Assembly (NCBI GenBank): GCA_013368375.1
Contig: JAACJP010000001.1
Coordinates: 2,684,574-2,748,573 of the forward strand
Direction of reading: 5' to 3'
Length of the DNA stretch: 64,000 nucleotides
From: Tricholomella constricta
Lineage: Eukaryota; Basidiomycota; Agaricomycetes; Agaricales; Lyophyllaceae
How positions within the stretch are numbered: the stretch's first letter is position 1; each line of letters starts with the position of its first letter. Below are positions 2,643 to 22,557 of the stretch, one piece after another. The position numbers and the translations under genes were made by a program. The notes beneath the pieces were generated by a model. It saw only the letters and a list, made by a program, of their open reading frames with translations. It made no database searches and was not told the origin of the DNA.

Positions 2643-2682
2643 CACCCCCATCAGAACAGAACGTCCATAGGAAAGAGAATAA

Positions 2683-5600
2683 TCAAGGGGGGAGGAGACC
2701 CAAAGCCTTCCGATGTCTAAGAAAAAGTTCGGCAACAAGAGGTTTGGTCATAATGTCGGCGGTCATTTCTTGTGTGGAGATCCAGACAGTGGAAAAATCG
2801 CCGGTTCGGATATGTTCTCGGATGAAATGGTAGCGGATGTCGATGTGCTTCGAACGAGAGGTGGTAGCAGAGGAGGAAGCGATGCAGCCAGCGCCCTGAT
2901 TGTCGCAAAGGATGGGAAATGGTTTGGGAACAGGCAGGGACAGGAGGGAGAGGAATAAACGAAGCCAAAGAGCTTCCTTCATGGCATGCGATAGAGCGTA
3001 GTACTCGGATTCCGTCGACGATAAAGAAACCGTTCGTTGACCGACGGCCGACCAGGATACAAGCGCATTTACATAAAAGAAGCAGTAGCCTGATATGCTC
3101 TTCCTGTCCGATTCGTCAGAGGCCCAGTCCGCATCCGAGAAACCGCAACCATGATTGACGAAACCGCGAAGCCCATCAGAGGAAGACATCGGAGGTACAC
3201 CATAAACCAGGGAGAGGTCCATAGTTCCCTTCAAATACCGAAGAACACCCTTTGCCGCAAGCATATGGGCGCGCGAAGGATTACTGTTGTATTTGCCAAG
3301 GGCCATCGCAGCGTAAGCGATATCTGGGCGAGTACAGACAGCGAGATAAATGAGGGAGCCGACTAGACGTTGATAGGTGTTCTTGAGATCGTCATCAGAG
3401 ATGTCGGGGCAGGCGTTGGGTGGAGCGGGAGGAATGGAAGCCAATTTTGCGCGAAGGGGAGCCGATAGCGGGGAGCATTCATCCATCTTCCAAGTTTGGA
3501 GTAGATCGACAATATAAGATTTCTGGGATAAGCGCAGGGTACGAGAATCAAGGTCGCGAGTGATGCGGATTCCAAGGTAAAGTTCTGCGGTACCCATGTC
3601 GACGACTTCAAGGTGTTTGCAGATTTCTTTAATAAACCAGTGATAAAGCGGTAATGAGTTGGTCGCTACGAGACCATCGTCGACGTGAACGGGGACAACC
3701 AGGACCAAGTCCGAGCCATCCTCGGGCATAGGGATTTCGCTCGATGGGGGGGAAGACCAACGGCCGAAGAAGACACCGTGATCGACCTCGCAGCGTACGA
3801 GTCCAAGGGAAATAAGAATTCCCCAAAGAAGCATATAAAATTCGTAAGCAGATTGCCGTAGACCGTAGAGGGCGCGAAGAAGGCGGTACACGGAGGAACG
3901 ATGAGGGAGAGGATAACCAGGGATTTGCCTTGTAAAGATCAGGGTGCTGACGAGCGCGTGAAGGAAGGCGGTTTTGACGTCGAAACTCAAGAGATATAAG
4001 CCGTTGTGATTAGCGAAAGCAAGGACGATGCGAATGCTGGTGAGTTTAGCGACGGGAGCGTAGGTTTCGCCAAAGTCGTCAGGTCGTTGGCTAAAACCTT
4101 GTGCGCAGAGGCGAGCCTTTTCCTTTCCTTTAATAATGCTACCGTCAGGATTGCGCTTATAGGCATAAACCCAGACAAGGCCAATAGCATTTCGGCCCTT
4201 GGGTAGAGTCGTTTCCTCGAAGACGCCTTTCTCCATCAGACTATCGAGTTCACGGCGTTCGGCTGCCCGCCATATGTCGGCATCAGGACGACTATATGCT
4301 TCGCGTTGCGACTCGGGAGCTTTGTGAAGATTAAGATTTCGAGTAGAATAGAATTTAGAATCGTTGCCGACGGCGCCCATGCAGAAGTCGCGAAGAGCGT
4401 CGGACTCGAAGTCTGTGAGGGAAGAGTTGGAGTCAGGAGTGATGAAGTCCTCGGCAGAAGCGAAGGAGACAAAGTCCTGCAGGATGGGGGCAGTGAGATT
4501 GCCGAGTTCATGCGTAGAAGACGACGAAGAGGATGAGCGATTCTCGTGGGGTTTAATCGATTCGAGGTAAGCGGCCCCCTTCTCCGTGTGTTTGATGGAG
4601 CGTTTGGGGCGAGGGGACGGAAGGTACGAAGAGAGCGGAGGAGGTTCAGGAAAGGTCGAGCCCCGAACAGGAGCGAGATGTCCAGGAGTCGTCTCATTGA
4701 AAATGGCATCGCGAGTGAAATGGTAGCGACCGTTGAGGTCACGAACACGCCAGCCCTCTCGGCCCTCAGCATAGCCTACAAAAATCGCTTCGAAGCGGCG
4801 AGGACCACCTTTAGCGCGAAGTTCAGGGGGGATTGTAACGAAACATTGGCACCCCCATACGCGGAGATGAGAAAGGTCGGGTTTGGTCGCCTTAAACGCT
4901 TCGTATGGTGTCATATTCTTCGGAAGAGTCGAAGTGGGCGTGCGATTGAGAAGGTACTGATAAGTGAGGATGGCATCACCAAGGAAAGAGGGCGGAAGAC
5001 GAGCATCCGCAATCATGGCTTGTGCACCATCTTCGATGGTGCGGATGTATCGTTCGATCTTGCCATTTTGTTGATGTGCGTATTCCGCGGTAACTTGTTG
5101 AAGGATACCGCGAGACCGAAGGTGTGCAGCGAATTGTCCTTCAATAAATTCCTTAGCACCATCGCACCGAACGGCTCGAATGGGATTGCCCGACTGTAAC
5201 TCCCATGAAGCCTCCGCGGACTTGTAAATGAGGAATGCGTCGCTTTTGTGACCCATAAGATCGGTAAGTCCCCAGTTAGAACAATCGTCAAGCATACTGA
5301 AGAAATAGCGCTTCTTTTGAGGAGTGGCGACCGGGAAAGGACCACAAGTGTCGATGTGAACGAGTTCGCAGATGTTTTTAGCGCGATGTTTGTTATGCGT
5401 GTAAGGTCGTTGAGGGTATTTGCCGATCAGGCAGGGTATACAGTGGGTGTGTTCAAATTTTCCTTCCCATTTGACGCCGGTGGCATAGTCATGAAGGAGC
5501 ACCGCGCGCGTCGCATCGTGACCGAGGTGTCCAAGTCGACGATGCCAAAGTTCAGGCGTTTCACGTATACGTTCGAAGACTGGGGCAGCGAGAGGCGAAT

Positions 5601-7695
5601 CATTGGAAAGGAAGGGAGCAGTGGGCTGTGATGCAGGGACCGTGCCATCAGGGTAGACGAATTCACACCGTAGGAAAGAAAGTCGATGAAATACGTCCGC
5701 AAGGAAGGTAGAATGCGGAAAAACAGGGTGGTCCTTGGGGAATCGAATAAATGTATGCTTCCCAGGACGCCAATCGAATTCAATACGGTGGTCTGTCATT
5801 GAGCCAACGGAGAGGAGATTGATAGGGCACGACGGCGCATGCAAACAATCACGAAGTCGTAAAATAACGACATTCCCATCGGTACAGCAGATGCGAAGAC
5901 GAACTTCACCACGAGCAAGGGTGGTAAGCGAGCCACAATTGGCAGTCATGACTGGGGTGGCGGCGGCTGGATTATAAGTCCAGAAAACATCACGTTGATT
6001 GAAAATGTGTCCGCTACAACCAGAGTCAAGAAGGCAATTATATTGCTGCATATGCGTCAAGAACGCAATCGGACCGACGTCAACTTGAAGACCGCTGAGG
6101 GGTGTAGGCAAGTAAGCGTCAAAGAACATAGCATTGGTGGACGACGCTACAGATACGCCTGCGAATACAGAGGGAGGAGCGGTATCAAGTAAAGGAGGGT
6201 CCGGATCACATGCAGGGAAGGTATTGTATTCCTCTTCGACGTCGCCGGGCGTCTCGGGAGCCGGGTCCGGGCCATCAGCAAATAGGGCATGTGGAGTACG
6301 CGAGGGAGCACCCCCAGGAGCGGCAGGATGGGATCGCCAATTGGAGTTATTGACATTAGGCGGAGGGGCAGCGCGAGGACGCGGGGCAGGAGCCGGAACA
6401 GTCCCTTGAGCATTAGAGGTGGACGAAGGGGGGTTGGAAGGTGGGTTGGCAGGCGTGCGAGCGGGTACATTGGGTTGAATGCGGGGGCGAGGGTAGAGTC
6501 GCTGGTAATCGACCTCGACATCGAGTAAATCCGCGAAGACCGTCGTGTAGCTTGGCAAGGAAGGCACCGGGCCTCGGAGAAGTTTGCGATAGGCGCTAAG
6601 TTCGACGAGGTGGTGATTGGTGGGGGGGAAATGGTCAAGGAATGCAGAGAGACCATCGCGAAGCTCCCAAGGAAAACCAGCCGACTCGAGCTGATTGATT
6701 CCGTTGCGCCAGGCCGTGATGTAATCCAGGATGCGATGCGGACCGTATTGGAGATTACGAAGGCGAGTTTTAATGACTTGAGCGGATGTCCAGTCGCCAA
6801 TGCCATACAGACTGCGAAGAATAGCAAAGGTATCGCGAGCAGAGTAACGGTCGCCGAAAAGGTTACCATAACCGGGTAAGCTGCTCTGGATGGAGCCAGA
6901 AAGGCGAGAGAGGAGGATGTGCTTCGCCTGCCCATCCCGGTACCACCAAGTACGCCATGCGTTCAGTTCATCCCTCGTGGAAGTACGTGTGATGGTAGGT
7001 GGGTACGTCGGTATCATACCAGGGTCGAAAGGAGCGCTTGCCGCAGGGACATCGCAGATAAACTTCATCAGGTCCATTCCTTCCATCAGAAGTCGGACAG
7101 CTGTCGACCAGGGTCCCCAGTCATGCTTCCCAGTAAGTAAAGGAATGTGTACAGTATTCGGCATACGGTCATCAGAAGCGTGAGGAACGGAAGGGGAAGG
7201 GGAAGGGAAAGCGTTCATGGGAGAGTGACCAGGTGGAGCGGTGGCAGTAACAGGGGCAGGAGGTAAATAATAAAGTGGAGGAGGAACACCCCCAGGTTGA
7301 GGATGAGAAATGGGAGGCGGTGCAGAATAAAACTGAGGGGCAGGGTGGAATGTATGCGTATTATTGGGGGCAGGGTGGAATGTATGCGCGTTATTGTGGG
7401 ATATATGCGGTAAACTGGGTAAAGAAAAAGGGTTTGATGCAGAAGGATATACTAACGGCTGGTACGTGGATTGATTCGAAGCGAAATTGTGGGCGTAAGG
7501 ATTTGGAATCTGTGTATCGGTAATCTGGGAATGAGGGACAGACTGGGATTCTTCTGGAATCGGAATCGTGTGCTCCTGAGACGGATGCAGAGAGCCAAAA
7601 GATAGATGCGAGGCAGTTTGACGAAAGGACGGAGATTGACGAGATGGAACGCGAGGAAGGGCACGAATCTGATCATGAGGATTTTGGTCCGACAT
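2683..7695 (-). CDS. copia-A Gag-Pol polyprotein
   Basis: A single frame of about 1670 aa read from the ATG at 7695. The frame stays open upstream through the 5' LTR to 7863, so a longer N-terminus is possible. In order: Pro/Ser/His-rich leader; Gag-like region starting at HIPLLTGKHDWGPW; retropepsin with LLDSGCSGH; GAG-pre-integrase with H...H...C...C (LWHRRLGHLGHD, HCIPC); DDE integrase (HIDTCGPF, VRCDGAKEF, HQQNGKIERY); RVT_2 reverse transcriptase (ARLCAQGFSQ, LLSFDVKTAFLHA, VPVHVDDGL); RNase H (FSDADWASD, SSTESEYYAL, LCDNQGA, RSKHIDIRYHF). No CCHC zinc knuckle is visible in Gag. The RT active site reads HVDD where YVDD is usual. Domain order PR-IN-RT-RH defines Ty1/copia. Confidence 0.95.
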   Translation of the reverse strand: MSDQNPHDQIRALPRVPSRQSPSFRQTASHLSFGSLHPSQEHTIPIPEESQSVPHSQITDTQIPNPYAHNFASNQSTYQPLVYPSASNPFSLPSLPHISHNNAHTFHPAPNNTHTFHPAPQFYSAPPPISHPQPGGVPPPLYYLPPAPVTATAPPGHSPMNAFPSPSPSVPHASDDRMPNTVHIPLLTGKHDWGPWSTAVRLLMEGMDLMKFICDVPAASAPFDPGMIPTYPPTITRTSTRDELNAWRTWWYRDGQAKHILLSRLSGSIQSSLPGYGNLFGDRYSARDTFAILRSLYGIGDWTSAQVIKTRLRNLQYGPHRILDYITAWRNGINQLESAGFPWELRDGLSAFLDHFPPTNHHLVELSAYRKLLRGPVPSLPSYTTVFADLLDVEVDYQRLYPRPRIQPNVPARTPANPPSNPPSSTSNAQGTVPAPAPRPRAAPPPNVNNSNWRSHPAAPGGAPSRTPHALFADGPDPAPETPGDVEEEYNTFPACDPDPPLLDTAPPSVFAGVSVASSTNAMFFDAYLPTPLSGLQVDVGPIAFLTHMQQYNCLLDSGCSGHIFNQRDVFWTYNPAAATPVMTANCGSLTTLARGEVRLRICCTDGNVVILRLRDCLHAPSCPINLLSVGSMTDHRIEFDWRPGKHTFIRFPKDHPVFPHSTFLADVFHRLSFLRCEFVYPDGTVPASQPTAPFLSNDSPLAAPVFERIRETPELWHRRLGHLGHDATRAVLLHDYATGVKWEGKFEHTHCIPCLIGKYPQRPYTHNKHRAKNICELVHIDTCGPFPVATPQKKRYFFSMLDDCSNWGLTDLMGHKSDAFLIYKSAEASWELQSGNPIRAVRCDGAKEFIEGQFAAHLRSRGILQQVTAEYAHQQNGKIERYIRTIEDGAQAMIADARLPPSFLGDAILTYQYLLNRTPTSTLPKNMTPYEAFKATKPDLSHLRVWGCQCFVTIPPELRAKGGPRRFEAIFVGYAEGREGWRVRDLNGRYHFTRDAIFNETTPGHLAPVRGSTFPEPPPLSSYLPSPRPKRSIKHTEKGAAYLESIKPHENRSSSSSSSTHELGNLTAPILQDFVSFASAEDFITPDSNSSLTDFESDALRDFCMGAVGNDSKFYSTRNLNLHKAPESQREAYSRPDADIWRAAERRELDSLMEKGVFEETTLPKGRNAIGLVWVYAYKRNPDGSIIKGKEKARLCAQGFSQRPDDFGETYAPVAKLTSIRIVLAFANHNGLYLLSFDVKTAFLHALVSTLIFTRQIPGYPLPHRSSVYRLLRALYGLRQSAYEFYMLLWGILISLGLVRCEVDHGVFFGRWSSPPSSEIPMPEDGSDLVLVVPVHVDDGLVATNSLPLYHWFIKEICKHLEVVDMGTAELYLGIRITRDLDSRTLRLSQKSYIVDLLQTWKMDECSPLSAPLRAKLASIPPAPPNACPDISDDDLKNTYQRLVGSLIYLAVCTRPDIAYAAMALGKYNSNPSRAHMLAAKGVLRYLKGTMDLSLVYGVPPMSSSDGLRGFVNHGCGFSDADWASDESDRKSISGYCFFYVNALVSWSAVGQRTVSLSSTESEYYALSHAMKEALWLRLFLSLLSLPVPKPFPILCDNQGAGCIASSSATTSRSKHIDIRYHFIREHIRTGDFSTVWISTQEMTADIMTKPLVAELFLRHRKALGLLPP

Positions 7696-7751
7696 AGTAG
7701 AGGCGAGTTGCGGTTCCTTCAGTACTAGAAAGCGCAGATAAGAGTCAAGCG

Positions 7752-7763
7752 GGGCCCATAACC
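7752..7763 (-). other. copia-A primer-binding site (half initiator tRNA-Met type)
   Basis: Immediately downstream of the 5' LTR, in element orientation, the sequence is GGTTATGGGCCC. The same core lies at the same place in copia-B (31879). It matches the known primer site of Drosophila copia, which pairs with the anticodon arm of a cleaved initiator tRNA-Met. Confidence 0.75.
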
Positions 7764-7906
7764 TGTTAGCTAGAGCGTAGAGTACGAAGCTCAGTGACGA
7801 GAATGTAGTGGTAAACAACTGATGTATTGCAGTGATGAGGACGCGACTACGTGTACGAATCACGTGCTATGGGCGTGACGGTGATGAATATATACGGAGT
7901 CCAACA
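7764..7906 (-). repeat. copia-A 5' LTR (143 bp)
   Basis: Promoter LTR of the minus-strand element and identical to 2500-2642. It contains the TATATATTC box. The polyprotein frame is open across it from 7863. Confidence 0.92.
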
Positions 7907-8096
7907 CTTACTGCCTGAGCGAAATGTTTCATATCATCAACAAGCATTTCAATTCGGAAAGGAAATTATAACGACATATGAATCAGCTCAAGATCTGGCT
8001 GGATTGACCATTGCAAGCATGAAAGGATGATATTGACCACAAAATAAAACAATCTACGACAATGTGTCACGAAACAAAAGACTATTGAGTGGCCTG

Positions 8097-9589: not shown

Positions 9590-10347
9590 GGCAAAGAAAA
9601 TGTGTAAATTCACGATGCCACTCAACCAGAAACAATTGACCCACTATTTATATTGTTTTGTACCATGCAGAAATGTTGGAGCAGCAGACTTGATTTGAAA
9701 AAGTCAAAGTGGTACGACCTTGCGAGATGCGCGTGAGCTGAAATTGCCTTGAATATACCTGTGGGCCTGAAAAATTAGATGTATGTGTCTTAGGAGGTAC
9801 AAAAAATACTCTAACCATTCTGGTTAAAGCTAAAGTGGATGCCGGTCTTCGTATGGTGATATGCGCGACAATTTCCAACTAGCAAATGAGAGGCACATCA
9901 AGCTGAGATGAGCATGTATTTTTACGGCGGCAGCACTGGCCAGGCAAAACTGGATGCACCAGTCCGAAGGTACAAATGAGGTACAGAAGGCAGAGAAAGC
10001 GACTTGGTCCAAAAAGCAGGGTGGAAATGGTGGTCGAACAGGAGAGAGATTCTGGAGATGGGAATATTGCGTGTCGAAAATATTCAACTGTGTTTGTGCC
10101 TGCTTGACCGCCAAGTCAACTCTTGCAATTTCGACCAAGTCCACCATGCCCGACCACAGGAGTAGCTCCGTTCTAGGTGATGGCAATCTACGGTACAAGA
10201 CCAGGCCTCATAAAATAAAATGGTTTACCAACTGACCCAGTTTTACTGTGACACCGACCGTCTGGCTTTTTACCTGCATGCACAATGCACTTGCGTCACC
10301 TTACCCTGCTTATCGCTGCTCTGTCCTTGACTAGTCTCTATTCTGTC
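9590..10347. promoter_or_regulatory. Divergent intergenic region between the DUF6698-like and Plavaka genes
   Basis: 758 bp with no convincing gene. It separates two head-to-head genes and so should hold both promoters. An in-frame upstream ATG for the transposase lies at 10285. The start at 10348 is preferred because it directly precedes the zinc-finger-like N-terminus. Confidence 0.45.
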
Positions 10348-12079
10348 ATGAAGTTTCGATGCGAGGGAAATGTCTGTGAATTTCAAGCATCAACCATTGC
10401 TGGTCATACGAATCATCGAAAAACATGTCTTCCTTGGCGCATCTCGCAGGACCAGCAGAGCCTTCGCCGACGTGAGAGGGCAGCAGCTCAAAGCATGAAG
10501 AAAGCATCGAAAATGAAGAAAAAAAGACCAAAGGTGTGTTTCAAAATTTATACTGTTAATATCATCACTCAAGCGTTTCAGGGTGCACCGGATGAGTACA
10601 CTGCAGAGCCTGTCACCATGGGCGAGCCATCTATCGCATATCTGCGATCTCCGTCTCCTTTCTTACCTCCTCCAGCATCTCCATCACCACCACCTCCACC
10701 ACTACCTGCTTTGACCCAATCAGGACGCCCCCGACGAAACTACACCTTGCCCAAACGATTTCAAGATGTCCTTCCAGCCCTTCCTGACCCACCACCCAGC
10801 GATGAGCCTGATCCTCCAGAGCCATCCCTACCACGCGTTAGACTTATTGTCCGTGATCGTCTTCTTTCTGCCTTAAATATATTTGGCCTCTGGCGCGACT
10901 ATCCCCACCGCCCATCATTTGTCCCTGACAGCTCTGTTTCAGTGGCCGATCTTGCAAACAAAGGCCTCTCGTTTACAGATGCTCCTCAAGCGTCGCTTTT
11001 CAGTGTGTTTTCTCACAAACCCCCATGGCCTTTCCGTAACATGTCTATCTATCGCCTCATGACTTTCTTCAACTCTGGAAGCGTCACGAAGTCTGCAGAG
11101 GAAGCCAACCGCTTGGTTGAGGATGTATTGCTGGCTCCAGATTTCACCAATGAAGATCTTCGAGCTTTCAATGCTCATCGAGAGAATCAACGGCTTGACG
11201 ATGCCATCAGCGATCCCGAAAGCTCCCCCTTCCTTCGAGAATTCTCATCACATTCAATAAACATTGATGTTCCGTCAGGCAGGAAGGACGTTTCGCCTTC
11301 AAAATTTTTGGTCCCAGGCCTACTCTACCGGAAAATCACATCTGTCATCGAAGCGGCTTTTCGGGACCCTCTTGCCCACCACTACCATTTATCTCCTTTC
11401 AAGCTTTTTCACCGGTCGCCAGTCTCGGGCAAGGAGGAGCGCGTCATGGGAGAGGTATATACATCGGATGCCTTCATCGCCGAGCACGATCACGTCCAAC
11501 TACGATCTCCAGTATCTCCCAACGATCCGAATTGCAAACGAGAGAAAGTTATCGCGGCAATCATGTTTTCATCCGACGGCACTCACCTTACAAATTTTGG
11601 TATGGCGAAGGCGTGGCCAATCTATTTAATGCTCGGCAACCTTTCCAAGTACTTCCGTGGTCTACCAAACTCGGGAGCAATGCATCACCTAGCCTATATA
11701 CCTTCGGTAAGATGTTCCTCGTTACACATATGTTCTTTGTACTGATGTCTCGTCCATTAGTTGCCAGATTCTTTTCAAGACTTCGCGTCTACGGTCCATG
11801 AGAAATGGAGGACACAGAAGAAGAATATATTGACACACTGCAGGAGAGAGCTCATGCATGCCGTCTGGGACTTCCTTCTTGATGACGATTTTGTTCATGC
11901 CTACAAATATGGCATGGTAATTATGTGTCTCGACGGCATCGAGCGTCGAGTCTATCCGCGGCTATTTACATATTCAGCTGATTACCCCGAAAAGTAAGTC
12001 AAATATCCGGTGGACGTAGATTGCCTACTAACCTGTACATTCAGGGTGCTCTTAGCCACTATAAGAGACAAGGGCCTGT
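10348..12079 (+). pseudogene. Plavaka (KDZ-type) transposase, 5' part, split by the gypsy insertion
   Basis: Exons 10348-10533, 10582-11706, 11761-11993 and 12045 onward, joined by 48-54 bp introns with standard ends. The N-terminus carries a C2H2-like finger (CEGNVC...HTNHRKTC) and basic residues, then a Pro-rich stretch with the block SGRPRRNYTLPKRFQD. The catalytic-region block MFSSDGTHLTNFG, WPIYLMLGNLSKYFRG and HHLAYIPS follows, and LPDSFQDF after the next intron. These are the recurring blocks of Plavaka transposases. Exon 4 stops at the chromovirus LTR (12080), and the missing text resumes in frame at 22558. Apart from that insertion I see no stop or frameshift, so the transposase was probably functional until recently. 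Confidence 0.85.
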
Positions 12080-12425
12080 TGTTAGGACCTGTGTAGCACG
12101 CCGGTTACAGAGTTATTCTGGAACCACCGAAGCGGACAGGCCTGACGTCCGTCAAGGAAGACGGCCTACGAAGGAGTATTCGGAGGTCGTGAGCGTTGAC
12201 GGAGGTGTTCACCGGGGCTGATTCGAACGAACGAGCTCAAGTGATACGGGTGTGAAGCCAAATAGATTGAGAGAGAGAGAGAGAAACGAGAACGAGAATC
12301 GAGAACTAGTCTTAACAATAGGTAATATCGAGGTAAGGAGTCTGAAAAGAAGTGGTGCCATCATATATACGGTGGGCGTGCGTGGGAAAGCGTAAGTGAT
12401 TGCGAGTTTAGGGGCGGTCGTGACA
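12080..12425 (-). repeat. gypsy-1 3' LTR (346 bp)
   Basis: Almost identical to 22207-22552. It contains a (GA)n tract, a TATATA box and the TAATATCGAGGT segment on the plus strand. On the plus strand it also lies directly upstream of the opposite-strand gene, so it could influence that gene's expression. Confidence 0.92.
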
Positions 12426-12428
12426 TTA

Positions 12429-12438
12429 CCCCCTTCTC
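12429..12438 (-). other. gypsy-1 polypurine tract
   Basis: Read on the minus strand this is GAGAAGGGGG, three bases before the 3' LTR start. That is the expected position and composition of the plus-strand DNA primer. Confidence 0.75.
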
Positions 12439-12524
12439 AAGCGTCGAGCCACTGAGACGCAGAAAAAGAAATGTTCGAATACGGGGAGTGTGGCGGTTAT
12501 TCTCCTTTCTGGGTCGCGCGCGGT

Positions 12525-12541
12525 CACGTGAGGGGCACGTG
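12525..12541 (+). promoter_or_regulatory. Two CACGTG boxes upstream of the opposite-strand gene
   Basis: CACGTG occurs at 12525-12530 and 12536-12541, 11 bp apart (about one helical turn) and about 110 bp before the ATG at 12648. CACGTG is the palindromic E-box bound by bHLH factors such as Cbf1 or Pho4 in yeast. A promoter role here is inferred from position. Confidence 0.45.
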
Positions 12542-12647
12542 TCGGTCTCGGTTGTAGGTCCTTGTGGGTGTTTTTGAGGATCTCGGAGATCGAAAGAGAA
12601 AAAACTTAGGTTGTTTGTTCCTCCTCCATCTTCTCTTCGTCCTGCTC

Positions 12648-14628
12648 ATGTCGTCCTTCAATCTCGATATCGCGGCCCCCGCCTCCGTTGACCCTAGCAC
12701 GATTTTGCGCGATTCCGAGTTGGCGCAGCTGTCCGTCGAAGATCGGGCGCGTGTGGCGTTCCTTGGCGTACCCCGACCCGTTTCCCCGACATCCTCTCTT
12801 CCTGGGATCGTCACACTTGTCGATGGGAGTGTCGGGGCGGTCCCCGAATCTTCTCCCGCACCTCCCTCAATTCCCGATCATCGGCTGGTCATCCGTCTGC
12901 CGGTTCGATCTCGACAGATCCGGCGTCCTCGTTCCTCCACTCCAGAGGTTGAGTTCGAACCGGCCAGCGATCCTGTGTCACGTCCGGCGGCGACTTCGTT
13001 GTCCTGGGGGTCCCTTTTGACGGATGAGCTGTTGGCGGAGATCCTGCGTACCGCTGTGCGGGTTCCCCCTTCCTTGGCGTGGTGTGAGACGCATGCACCG
13101 GTAAGTGTTGCCCTTTTTCTGCGATCGATTGTTGATTCCATTTTGGGGTCTTCGTTAGTGTGATCGTTGTCGGGAGCGTCGGCTGTCCTGTCGATTTCAG
13201 GAGGTCCGTCTTCGCGGGACCCTGCCCTGTGTCGACTGCCGTGCGGCGCACTCCCTGTGTTCGCTTTCGTTGGAGCATGGCCTAGAAGTGGCCGCTAGGC
13301 AGTTGGGGATTCCCTTGGCGTGGTTGCGCTCTCGTGCGGAAGGCTTTGCTTTCTCTCGCACTGGCGTTGCGATGTCCTTTACCAGTATCCGTCGCGCCTT
13401 GCGTTTACCGCTCCCCCCTCCTCTTCCTGTTGTTTCCACATCCCCTGAAGGGTCCGGTGTTGTTCCTCCTCCTCGTGCTCCCCCGCCTCGCGCCTTTTTT
13501 CGCGGTACGCGAGGCCAGGGTCGAAAGTCTGTGCCTGTTGGCCGTAGGGGTGCGCGCTTGTCCGTTCAGGAGGTGCGCTCTTCGCCTATCCCTGGCCCTT
13601 CTCCCTCCTCCTCCCGCAATAGTTCGGTTTCGCTTGTCCCCGTTCGTCGTTCTGGGCCCATTGTGCGCACCGAGTCTCCGGATTCCCCCATCGCCGGCCC
13701 TTCGGAGCCTCTCTTTTTAAAAGGGTCATCCTCCTCAGGCTCTTCTTCACCGGTTTTGCCCTCTTCCCCCCCCGCCATGTTGATTTCGACCCCCCCTGCT
13801 GCTCCGGTTCCCTCCCCTCCCTCGTCTGAGGAGTACCTCCGTCTTCAACGTCTCTATGACCAGGAGGTCGCGCGCGCGCAGGCCCTCTCTGTTCAAGTCG
13901 AGCTTCTCCGGGTCGAGGGTCAACGTGCCAAGTCCCATCTTCGTGGCGTATTGGCCGACTTCACCGATGAACGTGAGCGTTTCCTTCATCTGCAGGCGCA
14001 GACTTCGGAGGTCGTAGACGTCGATCGTGACGCGGAGGTTGAGGATCTTCGGATGGAGGTGTCGGTTCTTCAGGATGAGGTTGCTGGTTTGCAGGGGCAC
14101 GTTGTCCACCTTCAGGAGGTTAGGGATCATTGGCGTGGTCACGCCTTGGACCTCCGTACTCGCGTTGACGGTGAGTTTCGATTCCCTTCATTTTCTCCTT
14201 CTTGTTTCTAAGACTTTTTCGTAGCCCTCGACCTTGCGCGTACCGCCTTCGCGTCCGATATGTATATCGCGGATGGTGCTTTGCGTCGCGCCCTCGTCGA
14301 GTTGGAGGCGTCGCCAGTCCGAAGTATCATCGATGGCGCCCACAAGATTCTTGAGCGGCACTCGCTCTTGGAGCTGTTCCGCCCCCCCGTCGATCCCGAG
14401 TCGCCGTTCCCCGCGTTCGAGCATTTCCTTGCTCTTCATCGCCCTTCTCTTACTCGCGAAGGTGCCTTGGCGGAGTTCGTATCTCAGTCTCAGTTGATCG
14501 CCGACGACGAGCAGGACATTGCGTCGATGCGTCCCCTGGAGATAGGGTTGGTTGGGGAGGTGGGGGGTGATCGTGAGGGCGGTTCTTCTTCCAGTGCGGG
14601 TCCCTCTAAGCGTCGTCGCATCGAGTAG
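12648..14628 (+). CDS. Opposite-strand accessory gene of gypsy-1: Zn2Cys6-like, coiled-coil, basic C-terminus
   Basis: Three exons, 12648-13100, 13159-14170 and 14225-14628, with introns of 58 bp (GTAAGT...TTAG) and 54 bp (GTGAGT...GTAG). They join into one frame of about 622 aa. Exon 2 opens with six cysteines spaced C-x2-C-x6-C-x12-C-x2-C-x6-C (residues about 152-185). This is the fungal Zn2Cys6 pattern with a longer middle loop, placed in Arg-rich sequence. A Ser/Pro-rich linker follows, then a heptad-rich coiled coil (from EEYLRLQRLYDQEV through EVEDLRMEVSVLQDEV) and a final SKRRRIE that looks like a nuclear signal. The gene lies between pol and the 3' LTR, tail-to-tail with pol (219 bp apart). 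It resembles a DNA-binding regulator. Its role in the element is unknown; a captured host gene is the main alternative. Confidence 0.75.
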
Positions 14629-14846
14629 TCGGTCCCTTCTGCAGCGTCTTGGCCTGCGTTTATTTTTTGCTGAATATTTACAGTCCGGAGTTCGTTCGTT
14701 TGTTTTTCTTTTTTTTTCTTGATATTTTTTCTTTGTGTGATATTGTTGCGCTGGTGGTTGAATACGTATAGTAGAGTTTAGTCTTGGGAAAATTTGCATA
14801 ATTTTCGTGATGTGTTGGTGTGCGTGAGTGTTCGTCGAGTGTCTTT

Positions 14847-17800
14847 TTAAATTGTGGGGTCCCGTGGTTTTCTTGGGAATAGTCGGTGGAATTTAAGGGC
14901 CATGTCCTTTGCTCCTTCTATATTTTCCGCTGGTTCCCAGGTATCGTCTTCGGGGCCGTACCCTTCCCATCGTACCAAGTAGAGGACGTGTTTCCCTCGT
15001 GTTCGGGAATCCAGGATCTGTCCCACTTCGTAGTGTTCTTCGCCCTCGACTTTGATCGTCTGCGGAGGTGGTTTTGATCGTCCGGGGAAATTCTCGTGCT
15101 CGTGCTTCTCGAGCAACTTGACGTGGAAGACATTGTGAATCCCTTTCAGTGTCGGAGGTAGTTCCAGTCGATACGCGTGGCTGGAGATCTTCTGCAGGAT
15201 TTTGAAGGGGCCCAGTCTCCGGTGGTCCAGCTTTTTGGAGGGGCGTTTCGTTTTGATGTTCCGGCAGTCGAGCCATACTTCCGTTCCTACGGCCCAGTCT
15301 GGTGTAGGGTCCCGTTTCTTATCTGCAAATCGTTTGTAAGCTTCATTTGCGATCTCTATTTCTTTGCGGAGGTAGTCCTGGAGGGTCCGGAGGTCTACGG
15401 CTACCTCCTGGGCTTCTTTCGCCGGTATATCTTTTATAGAGATTGTCAAGCGGGGGTGATAACCCTTGTTCGCAAAGAAAGGGGAAACTCCCGTGGTCGA
15501 ATGGGTCGTATTGTTATACGTGAATTCCGCCAGAGGGAGCTGTGTTCGCCAGTTGGTCTGGAGATAGTTCACGTACATCCGGAGGTATTGTTCCAGTGTC
15601 TGATTTACTCGTTCCGTCTGGCCGTCGGTCTCCGGGTGATACGCGGTCGAAAGGTTCGATTTGATGTCCAGGGCTTTACATAGCGAGCTCCAGAAACGGG
15701 AGACGAAGAGGGTGCCTCTGTCGGAGATGATGTCATCGGGCAGTCCGTGCTTGGAGAAGACATGTTCCAAGAATAGCTGAGCAAGTTCCTTTGCTGTGTC
15801 CGTTGTGTGACAGGGTATGAAGATGCCTTGCTTGGTGAGGCGGCATACTACGACCAGTATGGCGTCGTACCCATCCGATTCCGGTAATTCTACGATGTGG
15901 TCCATGGATATGGAGGCCCACGCCCTTCGCCCAATCTGGAGTGGTTTCAATAATCCGTATGGGCTATGGCGTGGGACCTTCGCTCTTTTACAGGTATGAC
16001 AGCTTCGGACGTATCGAGTGACCTCCTTCCGTAATCCGGGCCAGAAATAAGTCCTCATGATGAGTTGTGTGGTCTTTCTGATCCCTGGATGTCCGCGCAG
16101 TTTGTGATCGTGGTGTTGCTGTAGGATGTCGAGTCGTAATCTGGAATGGTCTGGTACATAGATTCTTCCGTCGCGAAGGAGTAGTTTGTGATCATCGGAT
16201 AGGGAGAATGCGGAGGTCTCTTCTCCGGGTTTGGGTGCATGCCTTTCGAAGAAATCGTCTCGGGGTGCGTTCCGGACATTGTTTAGTAGGAGCTCCTCGT
16301 TCAGTATTAGGGCCGCGTTCAATCGTTCGGGGGGTATGATGATGCGGTTGTTGAAGGAGTTGTGATCCTGCTCGAAACCCTTCTTTGGATACACGTCCGC
16401 TCTTCGCGTAAGGGCATCTGGCTTCGCTCCCAGTCTTCCGGGTCGATAGTTTATCTGGAAGTCGAAGTTCGCCAGGCATTCCGACCATCGTGCTTGTCTG
16501 CGACTGAGTTGTTTGGTCGTGGAGAAGTACTGTAGGTTGTTGTGGTCGGAGTACACTTGAATGCGGTGGGGAGATCCCTCTAGGTAGGCCCTCCATTGTT
16601 TAAACGCTTCCACGATTGCTAGGAGCTCCTTGTCATAGATGTCGTAGTTGAGCTCCGCGTCTATCATAGTTCTCGCGTAGAAGGCGACCGGACGTAAGTC
16701 TTGTGATGTCTCGTCAAATTGGGAGATGATCCCCGCTATGGCGAAGTCGGAGGCATCGCACTCTAGTATCACCGGTAGTTGAGGATCGAAGTGTCGTAGG
16801 ATGGGTGCGGAGGAGAATGCTTTCTTCAATAGCTCGAAGACTCCTTCGCATTCGGAATCCCATTTCCAGATTGTGTCCTTTTGCGTGAGTTTATTTAACC
16901 TCTTCGTTATGCCCGAGTAATTGTCGATAAACCGCCGATAGAAGTTTGCAAAGCCTAGGAAAGATTGGAGTTCCTTGACCTTCGTCGGTCTAGGCCACTT
17001 CCGGATCGCGTCGACTTTTCCTGGATCCATCTTTACTCCGCCGGGGGATACGATGACGCCTAGGTATTCGATCTCCGTAGTGTGAAACGTGCATTTCTCC
17101 GGTTTCGCATGAAGGTTGTGTTTCCGGAGCCTCTCGAGGACCTTCCGAACGTGTCCGTGATGTTCCTCTAAGGTCTCCGAGAAAACCAGAATGTCGTCGA
17201 GGTAGATCACTACGAACACGTCGTTCATGTCGTGGAAGATGTCGTTCATGAAGTGTTGGAATGTCGCGGGTGAGTTTGTCATGCCGAAAGGCATTACCAG
17301 GTATTCGAAAAGTCCATAACGAGTGCGGAAGGCTGTCTTCCATTCGTGTCCCGGAGCTATGCGGACGTTGTTGTAGCCCACTCGGAGGTCGATCTTCGAG
17401 TATACTTTCGCTTTTTGAAGTCGGTCTATGAGGTCTCCGATCAGAGGTAGAGGGTAACGGTTCTTCTTGGTGATCCGATTTAATCCTCTATAGTCCACGC
17501 ATAGCCGGAGTGATCCGTCCTTCTTCTTTGCAAACAGTACCGGAGCTCCCGCTGACGAACTCGAAGGTCGGATGAACCCTTTTCCGAGCATCTCGTCGAT
17601 GTAATCCTTCAATGCTTTCAACTCCAGTTCGGACATGTTGTATATCTTTCCGAAGGGAGGGGTAGTGTTTTCGTCGAGTTCCACTGTGTGATCGTAGGGT
17701 CGGTGTGGGGGGATGGTTTTCGCTTCGCCCGCTGAGAATACGTCTTCGAAGTCCCTGTACTCCGGAGGTACGACTTCCTCGAAGATTTCCCTTTCTGTCT

Positions 17801-19346
17801 TTGGTTGCTTGGGTTCATCGTCGGAGGTGTTATTGGCATGGAGGTGTTCTTCCTTTTCGGTGGGGGAGATGTGTAGTTGGAACGCTGTGGCTCCGTCCCT
17901 GATGAGGTTCGCGAATGGCGCCGCTCCGATCAGGCGGATGTTTTGTGTTTCGACATCCTCTTCTCCCTCTCCCGTTTCGTCTTCGGCCTCCGTTTCCGGG
18001 TTGGTTTCCTCTTCTTCCTGTGTTTCTGTCGTTGGGGACGTTGCGGATTTCCGTTTGGGGTGGGGTTTGAATTTGGACCTCGGAACGTTTGGAGGGAAGT
18101 AGTTCGGTGGGGGTGGTTTTCGGGTGCGTTTCCGTCCCGTTATCTCCTCTGGTGACTCGGTTGTCGGTGTTGGTACTTCCTCTTGGGGTTCGTTGGTGTT
18201 TGGGCGAGTGTCTTCCTCCTTCATGTTATCGCTGGAGGTGTCGTTCTGATCGTTGTCGTCGTCCAGGAGGTCCCTGAGGAGGGGTTGTTTTTCCGAAAGG
18301 GGGTTGGCTGGTTTCGGAGCTTCGACGTCTTCCTCCTCCTCAAGGGTCACGGTTCTCCATTGCGTCTTCTGGGAAAGCGATATCGCGGCTAGTCCTGCCC
18401 CTTGTTCCATGGTCATGGACATTTCCCGCCAGTCGATGTCCGGATTTGCTTCCCGTAACCAAGGTAATCCGAGCACTAGTGGCGTGGCCGGGTGTAACTG
18501 TGTTATGAGGAGGTCGACCTTATACTCTAGTCCGTTCTCAAGTTTGATTGTTTCGGGACTATGGTGTGAAATGGCTCCACCTCCGCTGGGGTTTCCGTCG
18601 AACAGTTGTAGGGTCATGGGGCTGGCGAGAGGTTCCGGTTTCGTACACGAGGATTGTGCTATGAAATTTCCCGCCGCTCCACTATCGATAAGTGCCCGTA
18701 GTCGCGTTGAGGATCCTTCTAACTGTACTTCGATCGTGAAGGAGCGAGCTGACCGCGAGGGTAAGCGTTGATCTCCTGTGCCTGTTGTCGTTGGGACGAC
18801 TTCCTTTTTCCTTCGGAGGTCCGGTAGTGATCCTTCAATTTTGCCGTTTGACCCCCTTCGTAGCGTGATGCAGAGGTCTTTCCAGTTTATTCGGGGGTTG
18901 ACCTCCTTCAACCATGATAGTCCCAACACTATCGCAGCTGTCTCGTGGAGTTTCGTAAGGAGGAACCTTATCCTCTGCGTGGTGCCGTCACTGAATTTGA
19001 CGTCGTTGGTGGTATAGTGTGTGATTTTGCCCGATGCGGAGAGTTCTCCATCAAATAGGCAAAGGTTTATTGGGGGTTTGAGCTCCTCAAGGTGGAGCCC
19101 GCGTGATGTCGCCATGTCGGAGTCCATGAAGTTGTCGGTAGCTCCGCTGTCGATAAGCGTATTTTCGGGTTTTTCTCCTCCTCCGTTTGGCGTGAGGTGT
19201 ATTAAGAATGCCAGGGACGAGTGGGAGGAGAGTGTTACAGTGCGGGTGTCCGTTGTCGATAGTGCCGTTGCGCGTAGTTTAGTGTCAAGGCCCGGTTTCA
19301 GCTCTTCGCGATTCAGAGCCCGGGTAAGTCCTGAATCGCCCCCGCG
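14847..19346 (-). CDS. gypsy-1 Pol (two retropepsins, RT, RNase H, integrase, chromodomain)
   Basis: Reached by -1 frameshift from gag. About 1500 codons follow the slip; the first in-frame ATG (19127) lies after the first protease motif and is unlikely to be the start. Order: retropepsin A (LIDSGATDNF, LGLSWLKEVNPRINW); retropepsin B (LIDSGAAGNF, LGLPWLREANPDIDW); acidic Glu-rich linker; RT (YSKIDLRVGY, VVIYLDDILVF); RNase H (LECDASDFA, YDKELLAI, VYSDHNNL); integrase with H...H...C...C (HKLRGHPG, CHTCKR) and D,D,E (MDHIVELP, IISDRGTLF, DGQTERVNQ); chromodomain with the aromatic positions kept (YEVGQILD, YLVRWEGY, DTWEP). All catalytic residues are present. Domain order and chromodomain place it in the Ty3 chromoviruses. 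The protease duplication is unusual. Confidence 0.95.
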   Translation of the reverse strand, partial: RGGDSGLTRALNREELKPGLDTKLRATALSTTDTRTVTLSSHSSLAFLIHLTPNGGGEKPENTLIDSGATDNFMDSDMATSRGLHLEELKPPINLCLFDGELSASGKITHYTTNDVKFSDGTTQRIRFLLTKLHETAAIVLGLSWLKEVNPRINWKDLCITLRRGSNGKIEGSLPDLRRKKEVVPTTTGTGDQRLPSRSARSFTIEVQLEGSSTRLRALIDSGAAGNFIAQSSCTKPEPLASPMTLQLFDGNPSGGGAISHHSPETIKLENGLEYKVDLLITQLHPATPLVLGLPWLREANPDIDWREMSMTMEQGAGLAAISLSQKTQWRTVTLEEEEDVEAPKPANPLSEKQPLLRDLLDDDNDQNDTSSDNMKEEDTRPNTNEPQEEVPTPTTESPEEITGRKRTRKPPPPNYFPPNVPRSKFKPHPKRKSATSPTTETQEEEETNPETEAEDETGEGEEDVETQNIRLIGAAPFANLIRDGATAFQLHISPTEKEEHLHANNTSDDEPKQPKTEREIFEEVVPPEYRDFEDVFSAGEAKTIPPHRPYDHTVELDENTTPPFGKIYNMSELELKALKDYIDEMLGKGFIRPSSSSAGAPVLFAKKKDGSLRLCVDYRGLNRITKKNRYPLPLIGDLIDRLQKAKVYSKIDLRVGYNNVRIAPGHEWKTAFRTRYGLFEYLVMPFGMTNSPATFQHFMNDIFHDMNDVFVVIYLDDILVFSETLEEHHGHVRKVLERLRKHNLHAKPEKCTFHTTEIEYLGVIVSPGGVKMDPGKVDAIRKWPRPTKVKELQSFLGFANFYRRFIDNYSGITKRLNKLTQKDTIWKWDSECEGVFELLKKAFSSAPILRHFDPQLPVILECDASDFAIAGIISQFDETSQDLRPVAFYARTMIDAELNYDIYDKELLAIVEAFKQWRAYLEGSPHRIQVYSDHNNLQYFSTTKQLSRRQARWSECLANFDFQINYRPGRLGAKPDALTRRADVYPKKGFEQDHNSFNNRIIIPPERLNAALILNEELLLNNVRNAPRDDFFERHAPKPGEETSAFSLSDDHKLLLRDGRIYVPDHSRLRLDILQQHHDHKLRGHPGIRKTTQLIMRTYFWPGLRKEVTRYVRSCHTCKRAKVPRHSPYGLLKPLQIGRRAWASISMDHIVELPESDGYDAILVVVCRLTKQGIFIPCHTTDTAKELAQLFLEHVFSKHGLPDDIISDRGTLFVSRFWSSLCKALDIKSNLSTAYHPETDGQTERVNQTLEQYLRMYVNYLQTNWRTQLPLAEFTYNNTTHSTTGVSPFFANKGYHPRLTISIKDIPAKEAQEVAVDLRTLQDYLRKEIEIANEAYKRFADKKRDPTPDWAVGTEVWLDCRNIKTKRPSKKLDHRRLGPFKILQKISSHAYRLELPPTLKGIHNVFHVKLLEKHEHENFPGRSKPPPQTIKVEGEEHYEVGQILDSRTRGKHVLYLVRWEGYGPEDDTWEPAENIEGAKDMALKFHRLFPRKPRDPTI

Positions 19347-19352
19347 TTTCCC
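19308..19352 (-). promoter_or_regulatory. gypsy-1 -1 frameshift signal
   Basis: On the minus strand the heptamer GGGAAAC lies at 19352-19346, phased G GGA AAC in the gag frame. After 6 nt comes a perfect 9 bp stem, GCGATTCAG (19339-19331) with CTGAATCGC (19316-19308), whose right arm contains the gag stop. Slipping by -1 enters the open pol frame. The same arrangement is present in gypsy-2. Confidence 0.85.
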
Positions 19353-22177
19353 TCTTCTGTCTTGTGATGGAATTCGAAGATGTCGTCGCCGATGAGGTAG
19401 GTGGCTCTGCCCATGGCGTTTGCTGTTGGGCAGTCGCGCATCCAGTGTTCCAGGTCACCGCATAGGATGCAGGCCTTGTCTCGAATTCGTTGTTGCTTTA
19501 CATCTTCATCGATCTTCACCCAGGGGCGCGTTGACTTCTTGAATCCGAAGTTGTTGGCTTGTAGTGCCTCTTCGTCATCCCATGCGATTTCTTGGTCTTG
19601 CGCCTTACCTTCCTTACCTGAGTCCGGGTCCTGATCATGACTTTCGGCGTTCAAGCGTGCGTTCTTGTTCCCCTGAGCCGTTTGCGGCGTCGTGCGGCTT
19701 GCGGGTCCGGCCGAAGGTCCCATCGGAGGTCGTGCGGAGGTGTTGGAGGTGTTCGCATTATTCGCCCAGAGGGGTTTGTAGGACTCTGGATTTTCTATGC
19801 GATGTTCCCAGTACCTCCGGTCGATTTGGGTGACCAGATCTCGGTAACCTTCGTAGGTTTCGGGGCTTGGTGCGATGGCCAGGACGTTAAGGATTCGTTG
19901 GGGGAGCGCTTTCCGGAGTGTGAACTGTAGTGCTACCCAGTTCCAGCCTGTTTCGTACGCTTCTTGTTCGAACTTGATGATGAATGCTGTGAACTTTTCC
20001 CATTCCTTCATTTTCAGTCGCGAAATGTTGTTCTCGGCTTCCACTCTCGAGTTCGGTATTCCGAAGCGTGATCCTAATTCGTGTACGAATCCTTCCCAAT
20101 TCGTGAACATTGGGTGTTGGGGGTTGTACGTGAGTTGCAGCCGAAAGTAGTCCATAGCTCCGTCCTTTAAGTAGGAGCTCGCGAATGACACCTTCAGGTG
20201 ATCCTGTTCGTAGGTGATCGCCTTGGCTTGAAACGTTACTAGGCATTCCGTGACGAAGGTTTTCCATCTCCTCGGTTCTTTTCCAGTGAAGGGGTCCGGT
20301 TTCCTGATGTCGATTTTCGATTCCAGGTTTAGGAGGTGTCGGTACTGTTCCGGGGTCAGGTTTTGGTTTGGGCCTAAGAGCTGTTGCGGTGGAGGTGGGG
20401 GTCGTTGAGGGTTTGCGAATTGGCCTCCTCCCGGATTTCCGGGTGGGCCTCCTCCTCCTCCTCCTCCGTGGCCTCCTCCTCCCGCTCCGGGACCTCCGGG
20501 GCCTCCCGGGCCTCCTGGTCCTTGTGGTGGTCCGTATCCTCCGTGACCTCCCCCTCCTCCAGGACCTCCTGTTCCTCCGGGGCCGTTTCCCCAATAACCT
20601 CCTCCTCCCCCTCCTGGTCCTCCGGGGCCGTTTCCCCATTGAGTTCCTCTCGGGGTAGGTGGTCCCGAAGATCCCGGAGGGGGTTGGGGCTGTGGAGGTG
20701 GTCCGTTGTACTGGGGGTTCGGTCGTCCGCCGGGTATGGGTGGGGCTGGTCCGGGGTTGTATCCAGTTCTGTATTGTTCGAACTGGGGGAATTGTTGTTG
20801 GGTCCCTTGCCTTCCGTCGAGGATGTTTACGTTTTGACCGGGGCCGGGGTCCGCTCCGATTCCACGTCGTTCTCTTGGGGAGATTGGGCGTGGGCCTTGT
20901 GGTGACCTCCTGTTCTGACTTGCCAGATGAGGTGGTGTTTGGCACCAGTCTTCTCGTGCCCTAGGGGGTGCTCCCTCTCTTCTTTCCGAGTTTTCTTCGC
21001 GTAGTTCGTAGCTGTGGGCGTACGACAGTGGCGTTGGGATTCCCCGTTCCGACGGAGGTAGGGGAATGTTCTCAGGTTCCCTCGGAGGTACTCCTTCTTG
21101 GTTTGCGAAGGTCCCCTGTGGGCCCTGAAAACCCGAATTTGGCCTGGAAAACGGTCCTTCGACAGGGGGGTTCTCTTCGGGGATTCTTTGTAAGTTGTGG
21201 GCTCCCCAGAACCCGAACGTCGGAGCTCTTCGAGCGTCTGCCCCTGGTGTGACGGTGGGTTCGAACCCTTCTTGGCTGGGGGGAGCGTTCCCTTGGTTCA
21301 TCCTCCTGAGTAGAGCCGAAGCTGTCTGCGTATTGACCGTGCTTGTCGCTCGTGGAGGTTCTTCGAATCTAGTTTCGATTCTGGAGGGAACGGGCTCCTG
21401 AATTGGCATGTGGAAGGAACGTCCCGCGCTTTGGGGGTCGGAGAATCTTCTTCCCTCGTTGGACGTCTGGATTTCTCCAGCCAGAGCGCGTAACCTTCTT
21501 TCGTTTCCCCCCATTTGTAGCAACACCGTCAGTTGTGGGGGTAATCGATGGGCTTCGTGCAGTTGCATGGTCGACAACACGAGGTTGGCCCATTGTTCCG
21601 GTGTTCGGGGTTGATGATCCATCCCCATGGTTTCGACTAGGAGCTCGTGCGCTTGTCGTGAAAACTCTTCTCGCGTCATGCGGAGTTCGTAGAGTATCCT
21701 TTCGTGGTCTGAACCGTGTAGAAAGGGGTTTTGTTGACGAGCGAACTGTCCCTGTCCCTCCTCTCGTGCCCTATCCCTCCTCTGGAACATCTCCGGGTGC
21801 CTCAACCTTTCGTAGTACGATCCGGGAGTCTGGTTACTTGAAAGCGGAGGTCCGGAGGTCGTTGCGGATGGTGGTAAGGGGGGATAGTTGGGGGTGGCGA
21901 GTTGGTAAGAGGGGTTGAATACGTTTGAGGGGGTTCGGGGTAGGGGTCGTCGTGGGTCCTGACTGACTGAGGAAAAATCCCCCTCATGTTGGCCAGGTTG
22001 GAAGATCTGGTGTTCCAACCTGGACCTGTTGGATCCGAAAGTCCCTTGCATCGGAGGTCCTGTTGAGGCAGGGGAGGTTTCGAAGGGTGGTGGTGAAGGT
22101 CTCCTTTGAGTGAAGGAGGGACCTTCGAAGTTTTGATAGCGGATGGTTGTGTTAGGCTCCACTATCGTCGAGGACAT
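19313..22177 (-). CDS. gypsy-1 Gag
   Basis: 954 aa from the ATG at 22177, only 30 bases inside the 5' LTR. The first 500 or so residues are Pro/Gln/Arg-rich and disordered in appearance. About 100 residues of Gly/Pro-rich repeats follow, then a Ty3-type capsid region (from DPFTGKEPRRWKTF through YRDLVTQIDRRYWEHR). A CCHC zinc knuckle, C-x2-C-x4-H-x4-C, starts at CILCGDLEHW. The frame ends just after the frameshift heptamer. Gag forms the particle and binds element RNA. It is large for a chromovirus because of the disordered N-terminal half. Confidence 0.93.
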   Translation of the reverse strand: MSSTIVEPNTTIRYQNFEGPSFTQRRPSPPPFETSPASTGPPMQGTFGSNRSRLEHQIFQPGQHEGDFSSVSQDPRRPLPRTPSNVFNPSYQLATPNYPPLPPSATTSGPPLSSNQTPGSYYERLRHPEMFQRRDRAREEGQGQFARQQNPFLHGSDHERILYELRMTREEFSRQAHELLVETMGMDHQPRTPEQWANLVLSTMQLHEAHRLPPQLTVLLQMGGNERRLRALAGEIQTSNEGRRFSDPQSAGRSFHMPIQEPVPSRIETRFEEPPRATSTVNTQTASALLRRMNQGNAPPSQEGFEPTVTPGADARRAPTFGFWGAHNLQRIPEENPPVEGPFSRPNSGFQGPQGTFANQEGVPPREPENIPLPPSERGIPTPLSYAHSYELREENSERREGAPPRAREDWCQTPPHLASQNRRSPQGPRPISPRERRGIGADPGPGQNVNILDGRQGTQQQFPQFEQYRTGYNPGPAPPIPGGRPNPQYNGPPPQPQPPPGSSGPPTPRGTQWGNGPGGPGGGGGGYWGNGPGGTGGPGGGGGHGGYGPPQGPGGPGGPGGPGAGGGGHGGGGGGGPPGNPGGGQFANPQRPPPPPQQLLGPNQNLTPEQYRHLLNLESKIDIRKPDPFTGKEPRRWKTFVTECLVTFQAKAITYEQDHLKVSFASSYLKDGAMDYFRLQLTYNPQHPMFTNWEGFVHELGSRFGIPNSRVEAENNISRLKMKEWEKFTAFIIKFEQEAYETGWNWVALQFTLRKALPQRILNVLAIAPSPETYEGYRDLVTQIDRRYWEHRIENPESYKPLWANNANTSNTSARPPMGPSAGPASRTTPQTAQGNKNARLNAESHDQDPDSGKEGKAQDQEIAWDDEEALQANNFGFKKSTRPWVKIDEDVKQQRIRDKACILCGDLEHWMRDCPTANAMGRATYLIGDDIFEFHHKTEEGNAGAIQDLPGL

Positions 22178-22194
22178 GTCCGGTGGGTGGGAGG

Positions 22195-22206
22195 ACCTCG
22201 ATATTA
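22195..22206 (-). other. gypsy-1 primer site with self-priming layout
   Basis: Directly after the 5' LTR the minus strand reads TAATATCGAGGT. The LTR contains its exact complement (22461-22450 on the minus strand, ACCTCGATATTA), about 30 nt downstream of a TATATA box (22491-22496). The 5' end of the transcript could therefore fold back and prime at this site, as in S. pombe Tf1. No tRNA 3'-end complement is evident. Confidence 0.7.
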
Positions 22207-22552
22207 TGTTAGGACCTGTGTAGCACGCCGGTTACAGAGTTATTCTGGAACCACCGAAGCGGACAGGCCTGACGTCCGTCAAGGAAGACGGCCTACGAAG
22301 GAGTATTCGGAGGTCGTGAGCGTTGACGGAGGTGTTCACCGGGGCTGATTCGAACGAACGAGCTCAAGTGATACGGGTGTGAAGCCAAATAGATTGAGAG
22401 AGAGAGAGAGAAACGAGAACGAGAATCGAGAACTAGTCTTAACAATAGGTAATATCGAGGTAAGGAGTCTGAAAAGAAGTGGTGCCGTCATATATACGGT
22501 GGGCGTGCGTGGGAAAGCGTAAGTGATTGCGAGTTTAGGGGCGGTCGTGACA
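22207..22552 (-). repeat. gypsy-1 5' LTR (346 bp)
   Basis: Promoter LTR with a TATATA box at 22491-22496 in minus orientation. Duplication CCTGT follows at 22553-22557. Confidence 0.92.
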
Positions 22553-22557
22553 CCTGT

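Follow-up and report, generated by a model that had tools for sequence, protein, structure and literature searches.

Antisense additional genes are known from LTR retrotransposons, mostly from plant elements, and their function is described as not known in the accessible text of one article (PMC7264820) and as unclear, for antisense ORFs, in that of another (PMC8220671). The plant ORFs are conserved, and a nuclear or DNA-binding role has been suggested for them, as far as the available portions of two papers go (PMC7264820; PMC11963269). In Retand, antisense ORFs with a TRP28 domain are present in 97% of clusters and are predicted to bind DNA (PMC11963269, accessible part), and splicing is not mentioned for these ORFs in the accessible portions of either paper (PMC7264820; PMC11963269). 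In the retroviruses HTLV-1 and HTLV-2, HBZ and APH-2 are expressed as spliced antisense mRNA from the 3′ LTR and yield a nuclear protein that lowers sense transcription from the LTR; HBZ has a zipper (PMC3185765, as far as accessible). In PMC2864245, a figure legend mentions an additional ORF in some surveyed element, its function being unknown and its orientation not given, and the word "antisense" is absent from the accessible part of PMC3248453.

The gene described here is carried by a chromovirus of the mushroom Tricholomella constricta (Agaricales, Lyophyllaceae), within a stretch of 64,000 nucleotides of one contig (the window). It belongs to the same class, aORF-3R, as the antisense ORFs of plant Ty3/gypsy elements, i.e., gene23 of Grande and those of RIRE2 and Retand (TRP28), but differs from them in its location in a fungal chromovirus, its two coding introns, and its zinc-cluster-like and coiled-coil product; a scan of five members, with E values of up to 1 allowed, gave no match to TRP28 (PF04195). 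From Botrytis cinerea, Boty-like elements with an antisense gene, brtn, were reportedly described by Zhao et al. in 2011 in Virology. The presence of brtn in Boty, cited in the accessible parts of two papers (PMC7264820; PMC8365987), overturns the statement in the original prediction that no fungal case of this type had been described. Boty, which is likened to the present element only by its description in those parts, is likewise a fungal gypsy-type LTR element with an extra antisense gene; its host, however, is an ascomycete and T. constricta a mushroom.

Our literature search, in which subscription papers were scarcely covered and others were accessible in part, found neither a description of this gene nor one of a fungal retrotransposon with an intron-bearing antisense gene of the zinc-cluster kind. 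Antisense genes of LTR elements are already known, and as far as the literature searched goes, the novelty lies in the introns, the zinc-cluster-like protein, and the fixation of the gene through a mushroom chromovirus family.

The host element and its antisense gene

The element extends from 12080 to 22552 on the minus strand and has identical LTRs of 346 bp (3′ LTR, 12080–12425; 5′ LTR, 22207–22552), with the target-site duplication CCTGT on the left (12075–12079) and right (22553–22557). The pol open frame (14847–19454, minus strand) comprises protease, RT, RNase H, integrase and chromodomain, with Pfam matches to RVT_1 (643–802), RNase H (865–997), integrase H2C2 (1104–1160), rve (1183–1274; 27.9 bits, under the cut-off of 32.6), SH3 (1392–1451) and Chromo (1475–1522). 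RT, RNase H and integrase follow one another in this order and a chromodomain closes the C-terminus, which makes the element a chromovirus of the Ty3/gypsy group. The gag open frame (19313–22231 from stop to stop, minus strand) is in another frame than pol and overlaps it, and its matches are Ty3_capsid-like and zinc-knuckle-like, both below the cut-off. A polypurine tract read from the sequence (12426–12437, minus strand) adjoins the 3′ LTR and lies within conserved blocks.

The first 12 nt past the 5′ LTR (22195–22206, minus strand) form a putative primer-binding site of the self-priming type, being exactly complementary to an LTR stretch at 12323–12334 (22450–22461 in the other LTR; minus strand). 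None of 2000 shuffles gave a complement as long, and 11 of the 12 LTR bases (12324–12334) are invariant among five representatives of the family. This arrangement may represent self-priming of the Tf1 type, in which the RNA start pairs with the site beside the 5′ LTR. A TATA-like box (12361–12370, minus strand) is found just upstream of the complementary LTR stretch.

The antisense gene is located on the plus strand between the minus-strand chromodomain pol and the 3′ LTR. Exon 1 (12648–13100) encodes residues 1–151 and includes Cys146; exon 2 (13159–14170) encodes the cysteine cluster Cys152–Cys185 (13159–13260), a Ser/Pro linker and a coiled-coil-like region (about 13822–14170); and exon 3 (14225–14628) encodes a conserved C-terminal part with the basic end SAGPSKRRRIE, followed by the stop codon TAG. 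The two plus-strand introns have GT/AG borders and lengths of 58 bp (13101–13158; 58–73 bp among the copies examined) and 54 bp (14171–14224; 52–60 bp). The unspliced frame of exon 1 closes at 13163, just beyond the acceptor, and the three exons joined in frame give a predicted spliced product of 622 residues. The exon and intron borders and the in-frame joining put forward in the original prediction proved exact.

Three other features of the window may be recorded here. A second copy of the same chromovirus (62139–63995, plus strand) is 95% identical to pol 1–619, and since it is cut by the contig end at 64000, the antisense gene cannot be read there. The element adjoins, or sits inside, a Plavaka-type DNA transposase gene at 10252–12079 (PF18759, E 1.3e-14; frame 10252–11745). 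A Ty1/copia-type element at 2499–7907 has a single open frame of 1727 residues (RVT_2) and identical 145-nt direct repeats at its ends.

A standing part of the chromovirus family

The window is C1:2684574–2748573 of the T. constricta genome (44 Mb in 118 contigs). This genome was searched with the last 217 residues of pol, and the best 150 of 663 candidates were scored. These comprise 107 places of the family (identity at least 68%), 39 copies of a distant chromovirus (40–43%), and four second fragments of copies already listed, which were left out. Exon 3 as query yielded 128 candidates, all of them scored, which came to 107 distinct places once fragments had been joined. Exon 3 is found antisense within 2 kb downstream of the pol C-terminus at 104 of the 107 listed family places, and at none of the 107 does it lie on the pol strand within 3 kb. 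Two of the other three listed places, L049 and L050, have kept the 5′ part of the gene, a deletion having taken its 3′ part together with the end of pol, and the last (C1:115192) is a decayed remnant where 3.2 kb of sequence revealed no gene. The gene, or part of it, is thus at the same place in 106 of the 107 listed members, which supports the original prediction of a gene borne by the element. An initial count of 71 of 107 reflected the limits of its search: six of the 36 initial misses were inspected and all six proved to have the gene, whole or in part (L045 the 3′ part only), and searching with exon 3 alone settled all but three places. LTR and pol are at the expected places in all ten representatives and, among 30 further loci, pol is so in 30 and the LTR in 29.

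Lack of the gene in related elements, named beforehand as evidence against the prediction, does not apply within the family; in the distant chromovirus (about 42% identity), exon 3 lies within 4 kb of none of the 39 copies listed, and tblastn found no antisense gene at two of these copies, L047 and L048. No copy of the gene turned up in the host genome away from the element; of the three exon 3 places without pol, two reach contig ends (C25 and C110) and one is a fragment (C5).

The gene has the position of an aORF-3R, i.e., between pol and the 3′ LTR on the opposite strand, occurs in most of the family copies listed, and is conserved at the protein level. A chromovirus family of this genome therefore carries a two-intron antisense protein gene as a standing part, under purifying selection, and elements of this kind thus seem able to keep an additional gene as their own.

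Cargo specific to one copy had also been considered as an account of the gene and was rejected on the count of exon 3 beside pol C-terminal places given above. At the junction in L049 and L050, the antisense gene, interrupted at or inside its coiled-coil part, runs straight into a pol frame that breaks off within the chromodomain.

The introns were examined in 42 copies, i.e., 28 of the window subfamily, ten further representatives and four more. All 42 have both introns with GT/AG borders, and no intronless copy was seen among them, as expected if the gene never moves via its own mRNA. The genomic RNA runs the opposite way and holds the gene as a reverse complement without splice signals, so that the introns persist; the expectation that an intron-bearing antisense gene carried by the element would endure through retrotransposition is thus borne out, and coding introns can last a long time in a retroelement whose gene is oriented opposite to the genomic RNA. 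Among subfamilies the intron lengths shift by numbers that are not multiples of three, and the spliced frame is open in 29 of the 42 copies, the other 13 being broken. Among five representatives, intron 1 is rather conserved (36 of 56 gap-free columns invariant) and intron 2 is not (15 of 49).

A public T. constricta protein model, P0002, aligns without gaps with the spliced prediction for L031 along all 623 residues, 617 of them identical, so that a publicly deposited gene model agrees with both predicted junctions. The model is labeled "hypothetical" at its NCBI source, and its UniRef name cites a Zn(2)-C6 fungal-type domain. Three protein searches, two of them limited to the 7999 candidates with the most shared words so that distant relatives may escape, returned two T. 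constricta proteins only, and a scan of viral contigs found no relative. The public model P0001, on C36, fuses a copia reverse transcriptase fragment (PF07727) to the antisense gene and is probably an annotation chimera.

The encoded protein and its constraint

The window copy has the cluster Cys152-x2-Cys-x6-Cys-x12-Cys-x2-Cys-x6-Cys185, as originally read from the sequence. This six-cysteine signature, which we take to be the PROSITE pattern of zinc clusters, is kept in all 29 intact copies, and shuffling the window protein 100,000 times never produced it. All seven cysteines of the window copy lie within residues 146–185, and the seven, including Cys146 just ahead of the cluster, are invariant in nine of nine intact representatives, each with 7 to 10 cysteines overall. 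The window copy scores 11.1 bits against PF00172 (Zn_clus), below the cut-off of 21; three of five members match this profile at E up to 1 (best 0.019), and a genome scan with it gave 22 places, the antisense gene not among them. The earlier assignment to Zn2Cys6 thus holds with respect to the spacing signature but not to the Pfam cut-off, and since the signature is satisfied and the profile is not, we call the protein zinc-cluster-like rather than a member. In common with Gal4-type Zn2Cys6 factors it has the signature C-x2-C-x6-C-x12-C-x2-C-x6-C, basic residues and a later coiled-coil-like part; it differs from them in staying below the PF00172 cut-off, in the position of its cluster at residue 152, and in that the fungal transcription-factor middle domain is not among its Pfam matches.

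The long coiled coil of the original prediction is backed by weak Pfam matches to coiled-coil families, together with a reading of the sequence, and a PDB sequence search returned one chance-level coiled-coil match (E 5.1). The basic end was likewise recognized correctly: 27 of the 29 intact copies have the basic end SKRRRI, the exceptions being L023 and L041, and this end looks like a nuclear localization signal. No bZIP family is found among the Pfam matches at E up to 1 for the window copy and five members.

Nine intact representatives from five subfamilies give 29 between-subfamily pairs, and dN/dS is 0.20–0.32 at dS 0.42–0.85 in all 29; together with the invariant cysteines, ratios below one are what the original prediction had called for. 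Pooled over ten pairs of five representatives, dN/dS is lowest, at 0.15 each, in the cysteine domain (105–235) and the C-terminal part (490–622), and rises to 0.24 in the coiled coil, 0.32 in the N-terminal region and 0.50 in the Ser/Pro linker. The coding lengths of intact subfamilies differ by multiples of three. Pairs within subfamilies (n = 7) have dN/dS of 0.47–0.74 on 6 to 59 changes, mostly few, and sixteen young copies compared with the window copy give 0 to 0.74; such mixed ratios are expected of a blend of active and dead copies.

Candidate control sequences and possible roles

A leader of 222 bp separates the edge of the 3′ LTR from the ATG. In the alignment of five representatives, 73 of 100 gap-free columns at 12516–12620 (plus strand) are invariant, as against 58 of 208 four-fold sites; the limits of this block were set after the alignment was seen, and over the full leader 130 of 210 columns are invariant. 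For comparison, 17 of 45 columns are invariant at 12471–12515, 99 of 185 in the stretch that follows the gene, and 196 of 334 within the LTR. The block contains two CACGTG boxes, present in 12 of 13 aligned copies, and a GATCTCGGAGATC palindrome, present in 10 of 13 and incomplete in L035, L036 and L044. It fits a dedicated antisense promoter or a 5′ leader, and is taken as a candidate for the former; however, intron 1, the stretch after the gene and the LTR also exceed the four-fold sites, so that conservation of the leader need not mean a promoter.

The CGG-bearing word TCGGAGRTCG, picked post hoc, is shared by LTR and leader in 10 of 13 aligned copies; the pair is incomplete in the same three that lack the full palindrome (the leader copy is missing in L035, and both in L036 and L044). 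In the window it occurs eight times versus 0.48 expected, the word having been chosen after it was seen; inside the element but outside LTRs and leader it occurs three times versus 0.32 expected, a number reached in 6 of 1000 simulations. The one of these three in exon 2 straddles a position at which most relatives carry three extra codons. As a candidate binding site, the word is a lead only.

In the reading that we favor, and to which we give an even chance, the gene encodes a nuclear regulator of the element's own LTR, working like HBZ of HTLV-1 without being classed with it. Host polymerase II would transcribe the gene from a promoter in the 222-bp leader or the adjoining 3′ LTR, and the host spliceosome would remove both introns. 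The product would enter the nucleus through its basic end and pair via its coiled coil, its cysteine cluster would bind element DNA in the LTR or leader, and the bound protein would set the level of gag-pol transcription, probably also its own. The likeness to HBZ is drawn from description, and the T. constricta protein has no bZIP match in Pfam; in addition, translation of the main HBZ form starts at an ATG inside the 3′ LTR, as far as the accessible source goes, and the ATG of the present gene is 222 bp inside the element. More tentatively, and with the balance tilting against it, the gene may form an independently arisen HBZ-like circuit in which a zinc-cluster factor, made from a spliced antisense mRNA with a dedicated promoter, tunes the element by binding its LTR and leader. 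If true, such a circuit has been maintained in a mushroom while synonymous sites diverged by as much as about 0.85. The compact, constrained cysteine domain and the short conserved region upstream offer one protein and one DNA region to test, and about a hundred copies from at least five subfamilies in one 44-Mb genome provide natural variants.

The main rivals of such a regulator are a role in import or targeting and a role against silencing. The conserved basic C-terminus and coiled coil would also suit a nuclear accessory of the pre-integration complex which, with integrase and chromodomain, aids DNA import or target choice without control of transcription. The gene is a feature of this chromodomain family and was not found in any of the 39 listed copies of the distant chromovirus, and similar roles are discussed for plant antisense ORFs in the accessible text of PMC7264820; the conserved leader at the start of the gene and the zinc-cluster-like signature, however, suit a regulator better, and we regard the accessory role as rather unlikely.

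The rate at which the gene evolves bears on the second rival. Compared with the window copy, the pol C-terminus has dN of 0.006–0.030 and the antisense gene 0.14–0.21 in eight copies, i.e., about 6 to 23 times as much, as might be seen in a partner of a host conflict whose product counters silencing by RNAi, chromatin or methylation and keeps copies of the element expressed. A dN/dS of 0.20–0.32 and a slow cysteine domain, however, indicate mainly constraint, which leaves an anti-silencing role with a small share of our expectation.

A role of the antisense RNA itself, through double-stranded RNA or copy control and with the open frame incidental, would agree with the statement in the accessible part of PMC7264820 that antisense transcripts may regulate other elements. 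It is opposed by the codon pattern, since low dN/dS holds in all 29 between-subfamily pairs and the frame is kept across introns of varying length, with coding lengths that differ by multiples of three; we consider it very improbable. That the gene is a passenger, i.e., a host gene captured once or one into which the element jumped, is scarcely credible even with introns typical of host genes, because it holds one position in nearly all listed copies and at least five subfamilies, is under selection, and has no host copy that we found away from the element.

Parts of the element differ in their divergence. Between the window copy and L031, dS is 0.53 in the antisense gene and 0.20 in the pol end, and L041 has nearly the gene of L035 (94–99% by exon) with an LTR far closer to that of the window copy (92% versus 78%). 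The mismatch in L031 and the mosaic L041 together indicate that LTR, gene and pol have been exchanged among elements to some extent. L035 and L041–L043 are mosaics that share nearly one antisense gene and have clearly different LTRs, which points to recombination between elements.
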